DNA from: Sclerotinia nivalis
Lineage: Eukaryota > Ascomycota > Leotiomycetes > Helotiales > Sclerotiniaceae
Assembly: GCA_029531795.1 (NCBI GenBank)
Contig: JAPEIS010000001.1
Span: 930,001 to 994,000, forward strand
Direction: 5' to 3'
Length of the DNA stretch: 64,000 nucleotides
The notes beneath the pieces were generated by a model. The model ran no database searches. It saw only the letters and a program-made list of their open reading frames with translations, and had not been told where the DNA came from. Shown here piece after piece: positions 36,061 to 48,300 of the stretch (within the stretch, counting starts at the first letter, position 1; each line of letters begins with the position of its first letter). A program made the position numbers and the translations under genes.

Positions 36061-38609
36061 TAAGAGTACCGAATTCTTACCATGCTTTCCCAGATACCAG
36101 ATGTCAGTCTTAGTATCCTTCGAGAAAATTGCCCCCAGACCAAAAACAATCTTTCTATACCCATTATCCTGTTTGCTCTTTAAGCCTACCCGGTATCTCT
36201 ATCATGCCTTCTGCCCTATAATACCCTATTGTAGATCGATACGTGCATCCGTCCTTTCGAGCCGTATAGACAGTGTCATTGTCGCTGCCATTATACGCTA
36301 CGCTCCGTAGCTTGTACACCGTTTCGCATTACCTTGCCAAATCTCTCCTACACAACAAGGTCGACTGTATCTTGCAAACTTTGCTGTATCTTAATCCCTA
36401 ACTAGATAGCTTAAAATATAGCGTTTCCAGCTCACTAACCAAAGCACAGCTTACAAAATCCATTCCCCCAGTGTATAGATTGTAATCGATAATATAGAGG
36501 ATCGTATATATATATCATAAGATAGTCTCTACCAAAGCTCATCCACTATCATAATGTTTACCGAATGCTTCACACAAGAATGAAACTTGCTAAAAACGTC
36601 CCTCTCATTTATAAATTCCTCCGTTGCTATGATACCGCTCTTGTACATTCATAAAACAAAGTGCTAAAAGCGTCCCTTCATCCCTAATCTACTATACCAT
36701 CACCATTCTCAATTCTCGATTACTCCCCTCAACCACCTGTAAACTTCCAATCCAGTATACCCGCAGATTGTACACATTATTGGGTCATGAAAACTCTACA
36801 CGCTAACACCCCAGAGGTGCCCTATCAATCGCCGACACAACGTTTTCCTTCTCAAGCTTTGCTCCCACACAGATTCGTAAAGGCAATCCGCTTTGAAATG
36901 CTCCTTAAAGCAAATCTCAGGCTCTGCATCCCACTGCAGATTCGTAAAGGTGGTTCCGCTTCGAATTCCATCGTTGTTTCGTGATTGTCGGGTAGTTTTC
37001 ATCTCCATTCGACTGATAAATCCTCTGTTCCGGGCCTAATTCACGATACCTTCACTCCCAGTATCGCTCCTTTTTAAAGCACGACCTTTGCCCAGCTCCA
37101 GTCTGATTCAATCTTGGCTCTGTAAATAAATTACAGGTTCGTAGGATGCACCACGTACAGGTGTTGAATCATCGCATCCCAGTTCATGATGAAGATACAT
37201 TCTCCCTACCCGCGTGGTGTGCTAAGTGGAATTACACCACGTGATACGAGAACAGAAGGTCATAATTGCCCGGTTATCAGAAATTTTCCTGGCCGAAGTA
37301 CGGAGTATTAATTGCAAGTGTCGTATCTTCCACGCTTGGTAATTTTATGTAATCGATCTGATAAGATCTTCTTTAGTTGGGTAACCAATCTGATAAGATC
37401 TTCATCTACCAAGGACTAGTGTAGGAAAGCTTATATATATTGCTTATATAATATATATTGTCGGGATATTAATCACGTGATCCACTAGTATTGACGAATT
37501 CTTTTTCTGGTTCGCACCAATAGATGCAACTACGACACAAACAATGTTGCTGAGACTAAAGCCGAGGTCGCTAAGGGATCCCCACCTTTATTATATAGCA
37601 ATTGTGAATTTGGAGTGATAGCATTTTCATTATTCATCGTACAGATCGTAAATTTGACACTTTTATTTAAGGGTTCAGGAAAAGTTGAAAGAGCAGAAAT
37701 TATACGATTTAAAGATCCACTGCCACACAAATATGCAACTTCCCGGCAATAGCTCAACATTGTGTAACTAAAGTCTTACAACCATCAATTAAATCGATAA
37801 TGGAACAGTATCCCAAGCGATATTGTTTCCATTTCTATCCTTCCAATACCATCTCTTATTGACAACATCAAAAGTTCATTAATATCCATCTAGATGACTA
37901 GTCACTTTATGCTAATAGTCTGCTTCATTCCCCCAGAATGGCCTACCTGACCAATACTCAAACTCCCGGCGAAAACCACCATACGAGATTTGGGGGGCTA
38001 TCGCATAAACTCAACAACATGGGATCACACTTTCCTCATTGTTGAATAAGGTTATGGATGTATTATAATTGGATGGATTATGAAAGTGAATTGATAAATT
38101 GAAAATTTTCAATCCACTTTCTTGATTCTTCTATTTGGAAATAGGAAATAATAAATAACCTTATTCCATAATAAAGAAGTGCGATCTTATATTGTTGAGT
38201 TTATACGGTATCCTCACAACTTCGTTAGCTAGTTCCAGAGGATCATCAATAATACACCATATATACACCTATTACGATCATATAAGACTTCGCTATAAGT
38301 ATATATGAATTATCATAATCATCTAAACTTCAATCTCTCTTTACGAAGACATTTAGAAAAATCAAATCAAATTATCATTATTTTATATTGGATGTAAACA
38401 GACAGGCTAGGCCTATAAACTTTTTTTTATATCCACAATAGCAAACATGTACAGTCCGTACCCATTCCGGTAGTTAACCGGCGGACTCCATCGGGCGCGA
38501 CGTCCTAGAATTCATTAGTATTTATTGCCTATCCTATTGATGTCAAAGCCACAATGAAAGTGGCAAGAATGGTACTCACTCGAGGCATTTGGTTGTGTAA
38601 GCGCGCTTC
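36061..38609. other. Island of near-normal composition, no gene recognised
   Basis: Between the LINE and the amyloid-signalling pair. Small direct repeats: CAGATTCGTAAAGG at 36870 and 36937, and ATCTGATAAGATCTTC at 37356-37371 and 37388-37403. On the minus strand near 38560-38620 an ATG followed by a possible GTGAGT donor hints at a broken exon, but nothing recognisable continues from it. 38.0-38.45 kb is AT-rich. Confidence 0.4.
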
Positions 38610-39149
38610 CTAGTGACCATCTTTTCTTCGCAGAGACGGTCTTGAGCCGTGTTGTGCATGAATGTTGTCCTCTCTCCCATTACGATTAAGTGGCAATGGA
38701 ACACATTGTGAATGCGATAGGATGTCAAGCGTATATGACGTCTCTTGTGTATTACGGTCGTGTGTTAATGGCGGTGGACGGTCCCAACACGAACACTGCA
38801 TGTGAGTACAAAAAGACTCTGGCTGGCTTTTTCGTAGCACGGCGGTTGAGATGGTGCTAATAACGTGTTCTAACCGCTCACCTCTCGTCTTTAAAGTATT
38901 ATCCATTCGTTGCGGTGTTGGTGCTTCGCAGGAGGTAGCACTGGTATCATATGGCCAATGCAAGGATGCAGATTTACATGCGGCTCGGCCTTGTCGTGGG
39001 AATACAAATATGCAGCAACTGAACATCGACAAAATTCCCCAGTTATTGAAGTTATGGCCGCCATCTCGCTTATCAAAGGTGTCCCCGAGATGAGCTCGAC
39101 CAGAGATGTTGCTGTAACTACTGTGAACAGGATGATTTCTTGAGAACAT
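38610..39149 (-). CDS. Divergent ORF with N-terminal HET-s-like amyloid motif (candidate partner or receptor remnant)
   Basis: Uninterrupted frame from ATG 39149-39147 to a stop at 38610, 179 residues. Residues 14-31 read NISGRAHLGDTFDKRDGG. Aligned on Gly-Asp, the core GRAHLGDT matches ARFHVGDT and GRMQVGDD, the two amyloid repeats of the HeLo protein that starts 446 bp away on the other strand. In fungal HET-S systems such an N-terminal copy (R0) sits on the neighbouring NLR and templates amyloid folding of the executioner. Behind the motif (residues ~40-179) I recognise no NACHT/NB-ARC P-loop, repeats or other effector-activating domain; the sequence is Cys/His/Arg-rich and may be a truncated or frameshifted receptor. 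Another minus frame (39166-38891) is also open, so introns or a frameshift are possible. The motif call is stronger than the gene model. Confidence 0.5.
   Translation of the reverse strand: MFSRNHPVHSSYSNISGRAHLGDTFDKRDGGHNFNNWGILSMFSCCIFVFPRQGRAACKSASLHWPYDTSATSCEAPTPQRMDNTLKTRGERLEHVISTISTAVLRKSQPESFCTHMQCSCWDRPPPLTHDRNTQETSYTLDILSHSQCVPLPLNRNGREDNIHAQHGSRPSLRRKDGH
39057..39122 (-). other. R0-like HET-s-related amyloid motif
   Basis: Encodes residues 10-31 of the divergent ORF. The pattern [A/G]-R-x-[H/Q]-[V/L]-G-D is shared with both repeats of the HeLo protein (Podospora HET-s itself has RVQLGN and RVLIGN at this place). Seen directly in the translation; function is by family analogy. 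Confidence 0.6.
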
Positions 39150-39595
39150 AATAGCCACTTATCCACTCCGAGTTTCTGTGAGTCGAGTTGGTCGACTGAA
39201 TTTGCTTGGCTTGGGGACTAAATGTAGAGTTCGAGGGTTTTCGTGAATTATTCGCAAAATATGTTGTTGTGCAAGTGGTCTCGATCTGCTGCGTTGTGCA
39301 CAGGTATGGCAATTTGTGTACTGTGAGACAAGAGTTACTCGGCGATTTGCAGAAAATTAATGCGCGTTACCGATTTTTGCTGCTTTGAGTATGTGCAGAT
39401 ACGACTGATGGATTGTGTTACTTCTAACGGTGTCGAGGTACCAGTTTTAAATTCCAAGTATTCCTGATGACACATAATGTTAATATTCATCAACACCCAG
39501 TCATCGATATTCCTTACTCAGAAGCAGCTTTTCACCGCAACAGTCACACCTCGACTCTGATTCCAATCCAGAATATTTCTGGAAAACGATCAATA
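39150..39595. promoter_or_regulatory. Shared divergent promoter region of the amyloid-signalling pair
   Basis: A 446-bp head-to-head spacer between the start codons of the R0-bearing ORF (minus) and the HeLo gene (plus), of normal composition. No specific binding site was recognised; co-regulation is inferred from geometry. The HeLo frame is open upstream of its ATG back to 39467, but that extension is unlike family N-termini. Confidence 0.35.
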
Positions 39596-40447
39596 ATGGC
39601 AGAAGCAGCCGGCCTTGTTATTGGTAGCATATCACTGGCATCCATTTTCAGCGCGTGCGTGGATACATTCAAGCTTGTCAAGGTCGCGAAAGACGCTGGT
39701 ATTGACTTCGAGACAAACACAATTAAACTCGATCTCCTGCAACTTCGATTGACTCGCTGGGGAACTGTTGTTCGTATCGAGGAGCAAGAAGCCGCCATGG
39801 CAAGCGATGACCAAGAAAAAATCAGAGGAGCTTTGCAACAATTAGCGAAACTCTTCACGAGGGCCAACGAAAAGTCCGTTCAGATTCATGACCCCAATGA
39901 GCTTCCTACTCAATCAAGCAACGCAAGCCAGAAAATTCGCGACCTTGCCGCCAAATACCGAAAACGAAAGGGTGACAAAGAGAAGTGGACGACGATGCAA
40001 AAATGTAAATGGGCCTTGCACACCGCGGATGAAATGCAAAAGCTGGTAGATGATATCGTCCTCATTCTCGAATCGTTGGAAAAGATATTACCCTGCTCGA
40101 AGGGAATGGAGAATCTTGTTCCGAACGAGATCGAGGAAATTTCTCACATCGGCAGCCAGGGTCTAGAGATTGTAAGTCGAGTCGCTAAAGAGTGCTCAGT
40201 CGATCCTTTACTCGAGAAACATGTAGAGGACGCCATTGCGTGTCAAATCACAGCAAGGGCCAGTGTCGCTGAAAATCGTGTGGGAGAGTTTGCAAGATTC
40301 CATGTGGGAGATACGGGTAGAATAGATGGGGGTAGAACTGACCCTAGACCTAACACCAATACAAGCAATGTCGTCGGCAACAATATCACTGGAAGGGGTC
40401 GAATGCAGGTTGGTGATGATTATACAGGCCGCAGTATTTGGGATTAA
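39596..40447 (+). CDS. het-S: HET-S-type HeLo-domain cell-death protein with two amyloid repeats
   Basis: Single exon, 283 residues (Podospora HET-S/s: 289). Residues 1-~220 are a HeLo domain: hydrophobic N-terminal helix GLVIGSISLASIFSACVDTF, then LDLLQLRLTRWG, WALHTADEMQKLVDDI and a closing helix. In HET-S the N-terminal helix becomes the membrane-piercing segment when HeLo is activated. Residues ~222-283 are a prion-forming region of two pseudo-repeats: R1 with ARFHVGDTGRIDGG, an Asn/Thr-rich linker, then R2 with NNITGRGRMQVGDDYTG and a C-terminal RSIWD matching GFWD of HET-s. Repeat spacing equals that of HET-s to within a residue or two. Expected role: amyloid-triggered pore formation in heterokaryon incompatibility or programmed cell death. 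The ATG at 39596 was chosen because the HeLo fold starts there. It is flanked by a divergent ORF with a matching motif and, 130 bp downstream, by a mariner relic. Confidence 0.9.
   Translation: MAEAAGLVIGSISLASIFSACVDTFKLVKVAKDAGIDFETNTIKLDLLQLRLTRWGTVVRIEEQEAAMASDDQEKIRGALQQLAKLFTRANEKSVQIHDPNELPTQSSNASQKIRDLAAKYRKRKGDKEKWTTMQKCKWALHTADEMQKLVDDIVLILESLEKILPCSKGMENLVPNEIEEISHIGSQGLEIVSRVAKECSVDPLLEKHVEDAIACQITARASVAENRVGEFARFHVGDTGRIDGGRTDPRPNTNTSNVVGNNITGRGRMQVGDDYTGRSIWD
40259..40447 (+). other. HET-s-like prion-forming region (R1 + R2)
   Basis: Encodes residues 222-283. R1 about 222-242, R2 about 257-277, each one beta-solenoid layer of two in the HET-s fold. The Gly-Asp in each repeat aligns with Gly-Asn of HET-s; Trp282 aligns with the C-terminal aromatic loop residue Trp287. 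Confidence 0.8.
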
Positions 40448-40575
40448 TGAATGGGATTCTTTTGATGGGCGAGTTGACTGAGATACAAGGACGAGACGAG
40501 ACATGAGGGCGTGTATCCTTTAGTGTTACAGTAACCGTGCACTGATAATGGCCGAAAACACGTAAATATAAATTT

Positions 40576-41723
40576 TTGCGCGTTTCATTCCTACAACCTA
40601 TATTCTATTTATTAATTATACTATCACAACGTATTTCATTAAGATCAATTGATAATAATAATGTTCCTCAAAAGCATCTTAGCCTATATAATCGTAATAG
40701 AATTATTGGAAAAGCCTTAGAAGGTATAGGATCCACTAAAATTGCGAATGATCTTGGAATAACCTATATCATTATATATAATACTATTAAGATGAATCAA
40801 TTATACAATAAAGGCAAATCCTTATTCAAAAAACCCCAATAGAAGTATTATTCAGAAAGAGACGAATATATAATGATATAGTATATATGTTTATAATCCA
40901 AATCGATTTATTAGGAAATCATTATAGCTTATAGACTTGATTGTAAAAGGAATATTATCAAAAGGATCTTCTATGTATATAGAATAGGCAATTGGAGAAC
41001 TAGAAAGAGATCTGAACTTATATTAGAATATACACTTAAACGATTTGTATGATGCCTAATGTGGAAGGGCCTTACAGTAAAGGAATGGAGCTTAATCTTT
41101 TGATCGGATGAGTATTCTGTAAAGTAGAGGCAAGGTAAAAAGCAGGAATGAGTCTTTCGTTCTTCTTTTCAAAAATAGGATCGGAATATAATTCAAATAT
41201 ATTCTTCAAAGAAGAATATGAAGATTATAATCTGGAAAGGCTTTTGTGATATCGGAAAGAGCAATCTCTATATTATAAATAGAGATTTTGAATCCAAAAA
41301 GTTTGGGTATAATGCTAATTCATATTTGGAGATGCTTGATATAGAAATCGAATCTATTTTCGAAGGATTGGATTTAGGGTATCAATTTATGCAAAATAAT
41401 GTTCCTATATATATTGCTCGCAAAGTAAAAGTATAATTTCGAAAGAGGGGTATCTCATTAATTCAAGATTGACCTTTTTATAGCCCTGATCTGAATCCTA
41501 TAGAGTATATTTGGTGGTATCTAAAAGTACATGTTTTTGAGATGTTTCCTGATTTTGTTATAGATAAAAGCATTTCAGAATATACTAGACAAAGATTGAA
41601 GAGTACTTTACAAACAGTTTGAGATATATTGGATGATAGATTATTCGAAAAATTGGGGGCTAGTATATCGAATAAAATAAAGGCCTGTATCACAGCTAAT
41701 AACTGGTATACTAAATATTGAAG
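40576..41723 (+). mobile_element. Tc1/mariner-type transposase relic
   Basis: Plus-strand fragments in order: a helix-turn-helix region (GKALEGIGSTKIANDLGIT, ~40700-40770), the core strand IWKGFCDIGKSNLY (~41230), then MQNNVPIYIARKVKV and, after a stop, SPDLNPIEYIWWYLK-type sequence at ~41485-41525 containing the end of the catalytic triad. Several in-frame stops and an AT-rich composition show RIP-like decay. Terminal inverted repeats were not found by eye; boundaries are approximate. It begins about 130 bp after the het-S stop codon. Confidence 0.75.
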
Positions 41724-41921
41724 GTTTAAAGTAAAGTAACAATATAATTTTTTTATATTATTAAAATATATATATAGATCTCAAATATATCAAAATTTTA
41801 TATTAAAATAATGAAACGTTGATTTAATAAATAAGATTGAATAGAATGATATTGATAAATAATTCCTGTGACGATCCTGTTATTCTATTATGCCATAAAT
41901 GCCTTAGGCCATTCTTTCGGC

Positions 41922-45300: not shown

Positions 45301-48300
45301 TGATAATGGTGTACAAATGGTTTGATGATAATCTCTTCAAAGAGTTCATTTGGGAATCGAGATTGTGGTATGCTTTTCTTTTGCTATTGGTTGCCAAATT
45401 GGGAGGGGGGGTCTGTATTTGTCAAGATTATTAAGGACTAAATAATGTTACTATAAAGAATCGTTATTCATTATTTATCATTCGCGAAACGCTGGATATT
45501 CTTTGCAATGTAAAAATTTATATCAAGTTTGATATCATTACAGTATTCAACAAATTGTAAATCGTTGAAGGGGATGAATGGAAAACTATATTCATTACTC
45601 GTTTTGGTTTTTTTGAATTTCTAGTTATGCTTTTTGGTTTCTGCAATGTATTTATATTGTTCCAATATTATATCAATCATACGTTTTTCGACGAGTTGGA
45701 CAAGTATTACATTGTATATCTCAATAATGTTCTAATCTACTTTGATAATCTTATAAAACATAAAGAATATATCTATCAAATAGTTCAAAAATTAATGAAT
45801 ACTGGATTACAGATTGATATTAACAAATGCAAATTCGAAATTATGAAGATAAAGTATTTGGATTTTATTATTACAATTGAAGATATCGAAATGGATCAAA
45901 AAAAGATTACAATTATTATATTTTGGGAATTGTTTTTATATGTAAAGGATTTACAACGATTTCTTAGTTTCATCAATTTCTATCGACGTTTTATAAAAGA
46001 TTTTTCAAAGATTTGTTGTTCTTTTAATGATCTCTTGCAGAAGAATATTATATAGGATTGGACTGCAGATTATACAAAGGCTTTTGATACTTTAAAAAGA
46101 GTTTTCACAATGATATTGGTTTTGATATACTTTGATTACAAACGGAAAACTGTTTTGGAAATCGATACTTTTGATTGGACTTTAGGAAGAGTTCTTTCGT
46201 AATATAATGATAATAACATTTTGTATTCAATTGTTTACTTTTCATTTAAGTATACAATAACGGAATGTAATTATAAGATTTACAATAAAGAACTATTTGC
46301 TATTATCAAAACAATGGAAGAATGGTGTTTAGAGTTTCAAGGTTTATAAGAGGAGTTCGAGATTTTCATTGATTATAAGAACCTCGAATATTTTATGATT
46401 ATAAAAGCTCTCAATCAATAATAAGTGCGATGGTTTGAATTTCTGTCTCAATATAATTTCTGTATAGTTTATCGATTAGGAAACAAAGCTATTCGATTAG
46501 ACGTATTAAGTAGAAAACATGAAGATCGGTTATATCGCTTTGATCCAAACGATGAATATCTAAAGAATCGAGAATGCATTGTTCTTTTTCAGGATCGTTT
46601 TGATGATGATCTTTATAAGGATTTGATTGGGTATATCAATTTGGTATTAGTGGAGACAATAGTATTACTTTATGATCAATCAATTGATGTTTTAATCGAT
46701 GCAGTGTATACTAGGTCCGATATTGTAGATCAACTTATCTCTGCTTTTAACGATTCATCGGTGATTAAATGGCTAAAAGAGTATCGTAAAATCCTTCGGA
46801 TTGTTATACAAGATTGTTCGGTCCAAAATAATAGAATTTACTATCGGGATAAGATTTGGGTTCCACTAAACGATAAGCTCAAACTCCAAATTATCTATCG
46901 AATTCATTCTTCTGGTTCTGCTGGCTATTCTGATCGAACTAAAACAATCGATTTTGTCTTTCGTATATATTGGTGGTCTAATATGTATTTGGAGATTATA
47001 TCCTATATAAAAGCTTGCGAACTTTGTATTTGTATTAAATTGTTCAAATCGGTGCCTTTCAGATTTTTGAAACCGTTGTCTGTTCCTTTTCGTGTATGGT
47101 CTGATATTTCAATTGATTATATTATATTGTTTCTGGATTGTATTTGTTATAATTCTATTTATAAATATATCTTGGTGGTAGTCTGTAGGTTAATCAAAAT
47201 GAGATATTTCATTGGTACATGTATGCTAACGATAGAGGAGCTAATCGATGCTTTTATCAGCTGCGTTTATATGCTTCATGGATTTCCGGATAATATCATT
47301 TCCGATCGGGGAATGCAGTTCGTATCAGGATTCTGGTTACAACTCTCGGAGTGATTGGGAATTATCTTAAAACATTCTTTAGTTTTTCATTCTCAAATAG
47401 ATGGTCAGATTGAATGTATTAATTCGGTTCTGGAGTAGTATTTACAAGCTTTTGTTAATTATCATTAAAACGATTGGTTGGATTGGCTACCCTTAGCCAA
47501 ATTTGTATTCAATAATTTGGTCTCTGAAATAACTGGTTATTCGTCTTTTTTCATCAATTATGGTTTTAATCTATACATAGGTATTGAGTTTAATAAACTT
47601 TACCCACCGGATATAACTCTAATACAAAAACGGGAATTCTTTAAAGGTAATAGAACTACAGATCGTATAAAATATATCTTAAAGCAACTTTGTACTTTTA
47701 TACAACAAACAATTGCTACTTATAAGAACTATATTAATCACCATTGCTCTGATTCACCTTGTTACATAGTTGGCTAGAAAGTTTTTGTCAATACTAAGAA
47801 TATAAAGATTTTGTATAAAGCAAAAAAGTTAGATGATAAATAGATCGGCCCTTACAAAATTATCAAAGTTTATCCTTATACTTATCTTATTCAATTGTCT
47901 AAGAACATTAAAATCTTCCCTGTTTTCCATTATTCTCTTTTACTTCCAACTCATACTAATCCTCACTTCCCGATTTAAGTAACAATTAGCGAATCAGAAT
48001 CCCTGACTACACGGGACAGAATTTTGGAGCGGGATAACGATAAAGATAAGCCTATTCAGAAATGGATATTTGAAGGAGTTCTAAATAATCATAATAAAGA
48101 TGGTTATCATTATTTGGTCAAATGGAAACACTATACACCAATTTGGCAATCAGTTAATGATTTAAAGGGTAACAAGAAGATTCTTATCGAATATTATCGC
48201 CTTCATTCAAAAAAGTTAAAATCGCCAGCTTAGGTCCTAAAGCACCCCGACACTATTATATTGCAACCGGAACTATAGAATTTGCAATCGGAATCACACA

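Follow-up and report, generated by a model that had tools for sequence, protein, structure and literature searches.

Does the head-to-head arrangement at 38610–40447 of this stretch of DNA make up a working HET-S amyloid circuit, in which a receptor-borne R0 motif templates the repeats of a membrane-attacking HeLo protein, as an earlier note on the sequence had proposed, or is it what is left of one? In Podospora, according to the available part of the published accounts, the R0 motif of NWD2 (residues 3–23; divergent gene 0.6 kb from het-S) templates the HET-S repeats, after which HeLo attacks the membrane; the first 30 residues of NWD2 joined to GFP suffice for prion induction and for incompatibility with HET-S, and in het-s strains nwd2 is present as a pseudogene bearing the scar of a transposon. 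The window, by which we mean the whole stretch of 64,000 nucleotides that was analysed, corresponds to positions 930001–994000 of its contig, in a genome of 50.3 Mb and 31 contigs. A limited literature search for HeLo in Botrytis and HET-S in Sclerotinia returned no description of the present locus.

The plus-strand partner is made up as follows (coordinates are those of the window).

39596..40447, plus strand: HET-S-like gene, 283 aa, single unbroken frame.
39611..40153, plus strand: HeLo domain, expected to form the pore as executioner; PF14479 scores it at 106.3 bits in the search of the whole genome.
40253..40315, plus strand: R1, first 21-residue HET-s-related repeat, residues 220–240, core ARFHVGDT.
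40358..40420, plus strand: R2, second 21-residue HET-s-related repeat, residues 255–275, core GRMQVGDD.
40421..40444, plus strand: C-terminal tail YTGRSIWD after R2 (Tyr, Trp), occupying the position of the semi-flexible loop of HET-s and aligned with the HET-s chain.

Judged from its sequence, 39596–40447 is a real HET-S-type HeLo executioner gene, an added member of a known family. Its product is matched by PF14479 at E 5.3e-30 (105.2 bits against the Pfam cut-off of 23.2) and, among PDB sequences, by the solved HET-s HeLo chains at E 8.6e-19 (2wvn), 6.3e-18 and 1.1e-14. A further in-frame ATG lies upstream at 39467; the start codon is most likely that at 39596, because residue 1 counted from there pairs with residue 3 of 2wvn_A and residue 1 of 2wvo_A. 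Position 33, which we take to govern killing in HET-S, is Asp in the present protein and in two of its relatives (P0002, P0003), and Pro or His in two HET-s/S chains; it is uninformative on killing. An AlphaFold model of the HeLo protein (5 sequences) had a pLDDT of 37 and was discarded.

No second copy of the protein was found in the genome. Five other HeLo matches are spread over four further loci of the genome, and in the three of these loci that were scanned HeLo is fused to DUF7580 or to a ubiquitin-conjugating domain. Two HeLo-DUF7580 proteins are encoded on other contigs (L001:451–2145; L002:532–2145); one open frame on contig C8, near 1232147 (L003:1513–3330), holds HeLo, a Zn-cluster-like stretch and UQ_con (E 1.8e-25), an unusual fusion as read from a single frame, blind to introns. 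In the protein database, four relatives besides the protein itself were found among 1247 candidates, and the same four were returned by a profile search in which 7996 candidates were scored; the family may be wider, because candidates were limited to those having short exact words in common with the HeLo protein. The four are HeLo proteins of Monilinia vaccinii-corymbosi, Botrytis tulipae, B. narcissicola and B. hyacinthi (P0002–P0005), with 51–68% identity in the alignment and both repeats present. Compared with the present protein, P0004 is without a short internal segment. In P0005 (B. hyacinthi) R1 and R2 are intact and the first part of the HeLo domain is missing; this reflects either an error in the gene model or a protein that can no longer act as executioner and keeps its amyloid repeats. 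The description of the gene product in the earlier note, a HeLo protein with two C-terminal HET-s-related repeats, is borne out by the Pfam match and by the repeats kept in these four Monilinia and Botrytis relatives.

Identity among the family members was calculated from four of the five rows, P0005 being excluded because its N-terminus could not be aligned. The tail stands at 0.875, R1 at 0.70, HeLo at 0.69 and R2 at 0.62; the linker between the repeats reaches 0.36, against 0.90 for the R1 core. Among the R1/R2 copies of the five family members, ten in all, Gly 19 and Arg 15 occur in every copy, as do hydrophobic residues at 5, 10, 16 and 18; position 8 is Asn in 10/10 and position 20 is Asp in 9/10. 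The HRAM rules, in the available part of the source, are Gly 19, Arg/Lys 15 and hydrophobic residues at 5, 8, 10, 16 and 18, the last worded 'in general', and a loop of 6–18 residues between the repeats in 154 of 155 proteins (Daskalov 2015). The present proteins are like the HeLo proteins of HRAM1–5 (Daskalov, Dyrka and Saupe 2015) in Gly 19, Arg 15, the hydrophobic residues at 5, 10, 16 and 18, an R1–R2 loop of 14 residues and an aromatic tail, and unlike them in Asn at 8; from the HET-s repeats they differ in Asp for Asn at 20 and Asn for a hydrophobic residue at 8. The opposite-charge pair is absent from R1/R2 at the published positions 4, 6, 7, 11, 12 and 13, as read off the sequences.

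An HMM match of R0 was one of the tests on which the earlier note had placed its claim, and none was obtained: PF11558, the HET-s prion-domain profile, matches neither R0 nor, up to E 10, R1/R2, and of the 155 published two-repeat HRAM proteins it matches only 38 (Daskalov 2015, in the part available). Against the whole genome PF11558 found nothing, and the controls likewise gave nothing, so that this result has little weight. The five-member family profile aligned in register with residues 8–72 of the HET-s prion-domain chain, weakly (E 0.041); for the single C-terminus the match was also weak (E 0.066). With R1–R2 as query the genome search found only itself, the sensitivity of such short queries being low. 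By the profile match and by the conservation of the R1 core over the linker, R1 and R2 are real HET-s-related repeats; they are themselves divergent from the published consensus, which counts against the reading preferred below.

The minus-strand partner and the gap that separates it from the HeLo gene are as follows.

39150..39595: divergent intergenic region between the two ATGs, 446 bp.
38610..39149, minus strand: divergent ORF with an R0-like motif at its N-terminus and no known domain behind it; 179 aa from the first in-frame ATG, 182 aa from GTG 39158.
39078..39140, minus strand: R0-like 21-residue stretch, ORF residues 4–24, with a good match only in its last 8 residues, GRAHLGDT (39078–39101).

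The three cores are found on the strands and at the places where they had been reported, and the 446 bp between ATG 39149 (minus) and ATG 39596 (plus) is exact. Whether the minus-strand core is an R0 has two answers. GRAHLGDT forms ORF residues 17–24 behind ATG 39149 (motif positions 14–21). Scored with a profile of the ten family repeats and two HET-s repeats, this 8-residue core, delimited post hoc with the sequence already seen, is outscored among the 127,954 six-frame positions of the window by R2 and R1 alone and leads the next match by 4.4 bits; its score was reached by 4 of 7,999,954 random positions, none of the four having an ATG in the matching place. The full 21-residue stretch comes 13th in the window with the family profile and 15th once HET-s is added to it; since chance alone should give about 16 scores of this height per window, it is not above chance. 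The claim of an R0 in the divergent ORF is accordingly upheld for the core and not for the whole motif.

In gapped alignment of the first 40 ORF residues, R0 against R1 scores 34 (R1 against R2: 33). Of 5000 shuffles 15 score as high, and so does none of the other ATG-led open 40-mers in the window, of which 324 were compared; R0 against R2 is weaker, its score being reached by 138 of 5000 shuffles. Arg 15 and Gly 19 are common to R0, R1 and R2. The front half of R0 is off the hydrophobic pattern, with Pro at 4, Ser at 8 and Ile in the arch at 12. Its 21 residues include one D/E/K and seven S/H, a composition as extreme as that of 731 of the 45,574 open 21-mers of the window (1.6%); it fits the trend given for NLR motifs (less D, E, K; more S, H; Daskalov 2015, in the part available) and was therefore counted for a true R0. 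Most HRAMs in NLRs are placed at 'positions 5–9' in the available published text, which residues 4–24 of the ORF fit.

Two other candidates came up around the core. A recent tandem copy of R1 is an unlikely origin of R0: the 8 residues in common are mostly written in different synonymous codons. The core was also looked for at 394,358 six-frame positions of the loci with HeLo, NLR or repeat matches, which gave eight places of at least 12.5 bits. The best of them (17.5, in L021) was rejected as an R0, since it lies outside the NLR frame there and is apparently unrelated; so close a score in such a place counts against R0.

That the R0-like core is a chance likeness in non-coding DNA, the HeLo gene being alone and its NLR elsewhere or absent, is the main rival, an unlikely reading but one with real weight. 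The chance-level score of the full 21-mer speaks for it, as does the lack of relatives: no candidate homologue of the first 60 ORF residues was found among proteins of about 660–2100 residues, and the ORF had no match in the PDB sequences and no domain in Pfam (best DUF2735, E 0.17). The codon score of the ORF (-0.05) also favours chance in being under that of coding frames (5th percentile 0.014), although it is above that of non-coding ones (95th percentile -0.137), and an NLR-free HeLo gene has ample precedent, 57 of 155 HRAM HeLo genes having no adjacent NLR (Daskalov 2015, in the part available). Against chance, the core score, the place behind an ATG and the divergent orientation are jointly unlikely; the core alone, at about 5 in 10 million positions, would be met roughly once in 1000 cases in the 1 kb upstream of a HeLo gene, and the shuffles and control 40-mers that reach the R0–R1 score are as few as given above.

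A second alternative takes the 179-residue ORF for a small protein of a live, NLR-free two-gene circuit, whose R0 end would template R1/R2 on a signal sensed by its C-terminal part. The 182-codon open frame is matched in length by 6 of 1000 random sequences and is longer than the other 994, which also speaks for the reading preferred below; its codon score is the best among its six frames, and the activity of the NWD2–GFP fragment described above, as far as the available text goes, implies that an R0 fragment can act without an NLR body. With no conservation of the ORF found in the searches just listed (first 60 residues against NLR-length proteins; PDB sequences), no Pfam domain, a codon score under the 5th percentile of coding frames and an incomplete R0, we regard this circuit as doubtful.

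The NLR body itself was searched for in several ways. A six-frame search, in which exons would match singly, gave no NPHP3_N, NACHT or NB-ARC match in the window, and on the minus strand beyond the divergent ORF the DNA is rich in A+T, with many stops and repeats. Among the matches listed for the whole genome there are 54 to NPHP3_N, 38 to NACHT and 5 to NB-ARC, the nearest NACHT-type or NB-ARC match listed on the same contig being at 4,283,357, about 3.3 Mb off. NLR frames from 50 loci, compared with the window in six frames, revealed no remnant at the HET-S-like locus (best E 0.078, outside the locus). The R0 query found only itself in the genome and so no second R0-bearing NLR, at the low sensitivity of short queries. 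An intact R0-NLR facing the HeLo gene, intron-hidden or missed by the searches, would follow the rule of head-to-head R0-NLR/HET-S pairs in the available literature (46/55), but it is largely refuted, and very improbable, with no NLR domain in the six-frame search and such DNA beyond the ORF. The view of the divergent ORF as an NLR or complete receptor is likewise not supported, there being neither a NACHT-type or NB-ARC match in the window nor a Pfam domain in the ORF.

Behind R0, a different frame holds a string that resembles a degenerate P-loop; it was rejected as too weak. Elsewhere in the genome (L012–L016; contigs C4, C9 and C16), several near-identical NLRs have in common an N-terminal stretch in which Asn, Phe and Gly repeats abound; it precedes NACHT and is possibly another signalling motif.

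The locus is a 2.3-kb island flanked by repeats, the nearest of which are these.

37990..38219: MITE-like palindrome, about 230 bp long, with a self-match in reverse orientation and many other matches, including copies on other contigs.
40527..41800 (end of the stretch searched): start of a repeated AT-rich element, 80 bp past the HET-S-like stop.

The left half of the window holds ordinary genes (MFS transporter, Zn-cluster transcription factor, MBOAT) at 37–50% G+C; from about 32 kb rightwards G+C is mostly 25–40% and repeats predominate. The element at 40527, probably a DNA transposon, has 43 further genome matches (pieces counted separately), most at 83–89% and a second set at 71–74% identity; the two groups suggest two transposon subfamilies. 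Within the island, 38560–39470 occurs once in the genome, 38220–38560 has no second genome match, and 39470–40445 was searched for copies at the protein level only. An open frame at 46425–47351 of the window carries Integrase_H2C2 and belongs to a retroelement of the AT-rich half.

The reading we prefer, at a probability of roughly 0.6, is that of a head-to-head HET-S/NLR locus from which the NLR body is gone, with an R0-like stub left beside an intact-looking HeLo gene. Place, orientation and core make descent of the R0-like core from an NLR probable but unproven; we infer the loss from the stub alone, because nothing behind R0 could be recognised as the remains of an NLR body. The prior for an R0 NLR next door is high, since an adjacent NLR is present for 98 of 155 HRAM HeLo genes (Daskalov 2015) and an R0-bearing STAND gene for 46 of 55 HET-S homologues, as given in the available part of the sources. 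The layout is that of HET-S/NWD2 in Podospora anserina: HeLo with two C-terminal repeats, and a divergent neighbour whose first 25 residues include an R0-like motif (residues 4–24 here, 3–23 in NWD2) across a gap of 446 bp here and 0.6 kb there; the match in orientation and in the place of R0 was counted for the stub. In the lost-receptor reading the NLR is broken, as nwd2 is in het-s strains. Unlike the Podospora pair, the present one has no NLR body that was found, its R1/R2 are unmatched by PF11558 and the front half of its R0 is mismatched. In Podospora the broken nwd2 goes with HET-s, itself without cell-killing; the present HeLo domain may or may not kill.

When the ancestral locus still worked, its divergent gene would have encoded an NLR with an N-terminal R0. 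Ligand binding would have clustered the R0 motifs of the NLR, and the clustered R0 would have templated R1/R2 into a beta-solenoid amyloid; the HeLo domain, refolded, would then have attacked the membrane. The NLR body would later have been lost, its R0-like N-terminal stub remaining in the 2.3-kb island. Of the amyloid circuit that the earlier note had described, two parts hold: the HeLo protein of HET-S type with its two repeats, and the R0-like core on the divergent strand, situated as the R0 of an NLR should be. A complete, specific circuit with a working NLR partner is not supported. The specificity of the pair had been argued from co-variation at Asp, which is a single residue; Asp 20, being present in 9/10 R1/R2 copies, is a family trait and not a shown co-variation with R0.

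A more far-reaching version, which we consider improbable, is that the locus parallels het-s independently, the NLR having been lost and HeLo and the amyloid repeats kept; the repeats would then serve as a receptor-free, prion-like self/non-self switch, or be triggered by a residual R0 mini-protein, by way of their Asn 8/Asp 20 variant.

Detailed knowledge of NLR-to-HeLo amyloid signalling comes from a very small number of fungi. With the present repeats the HET-s-related family comes to include a form that escapes the Pfam prion-domain profile, and a conserved executioner with a decayed receptor in the Sclerotiniaceae would be a testable case of circuit decay or of reuse for incompatibility. 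Should the gene still be able to form a prion with no NLR present, [Het-s] would no longer be the only natural case of its kind.
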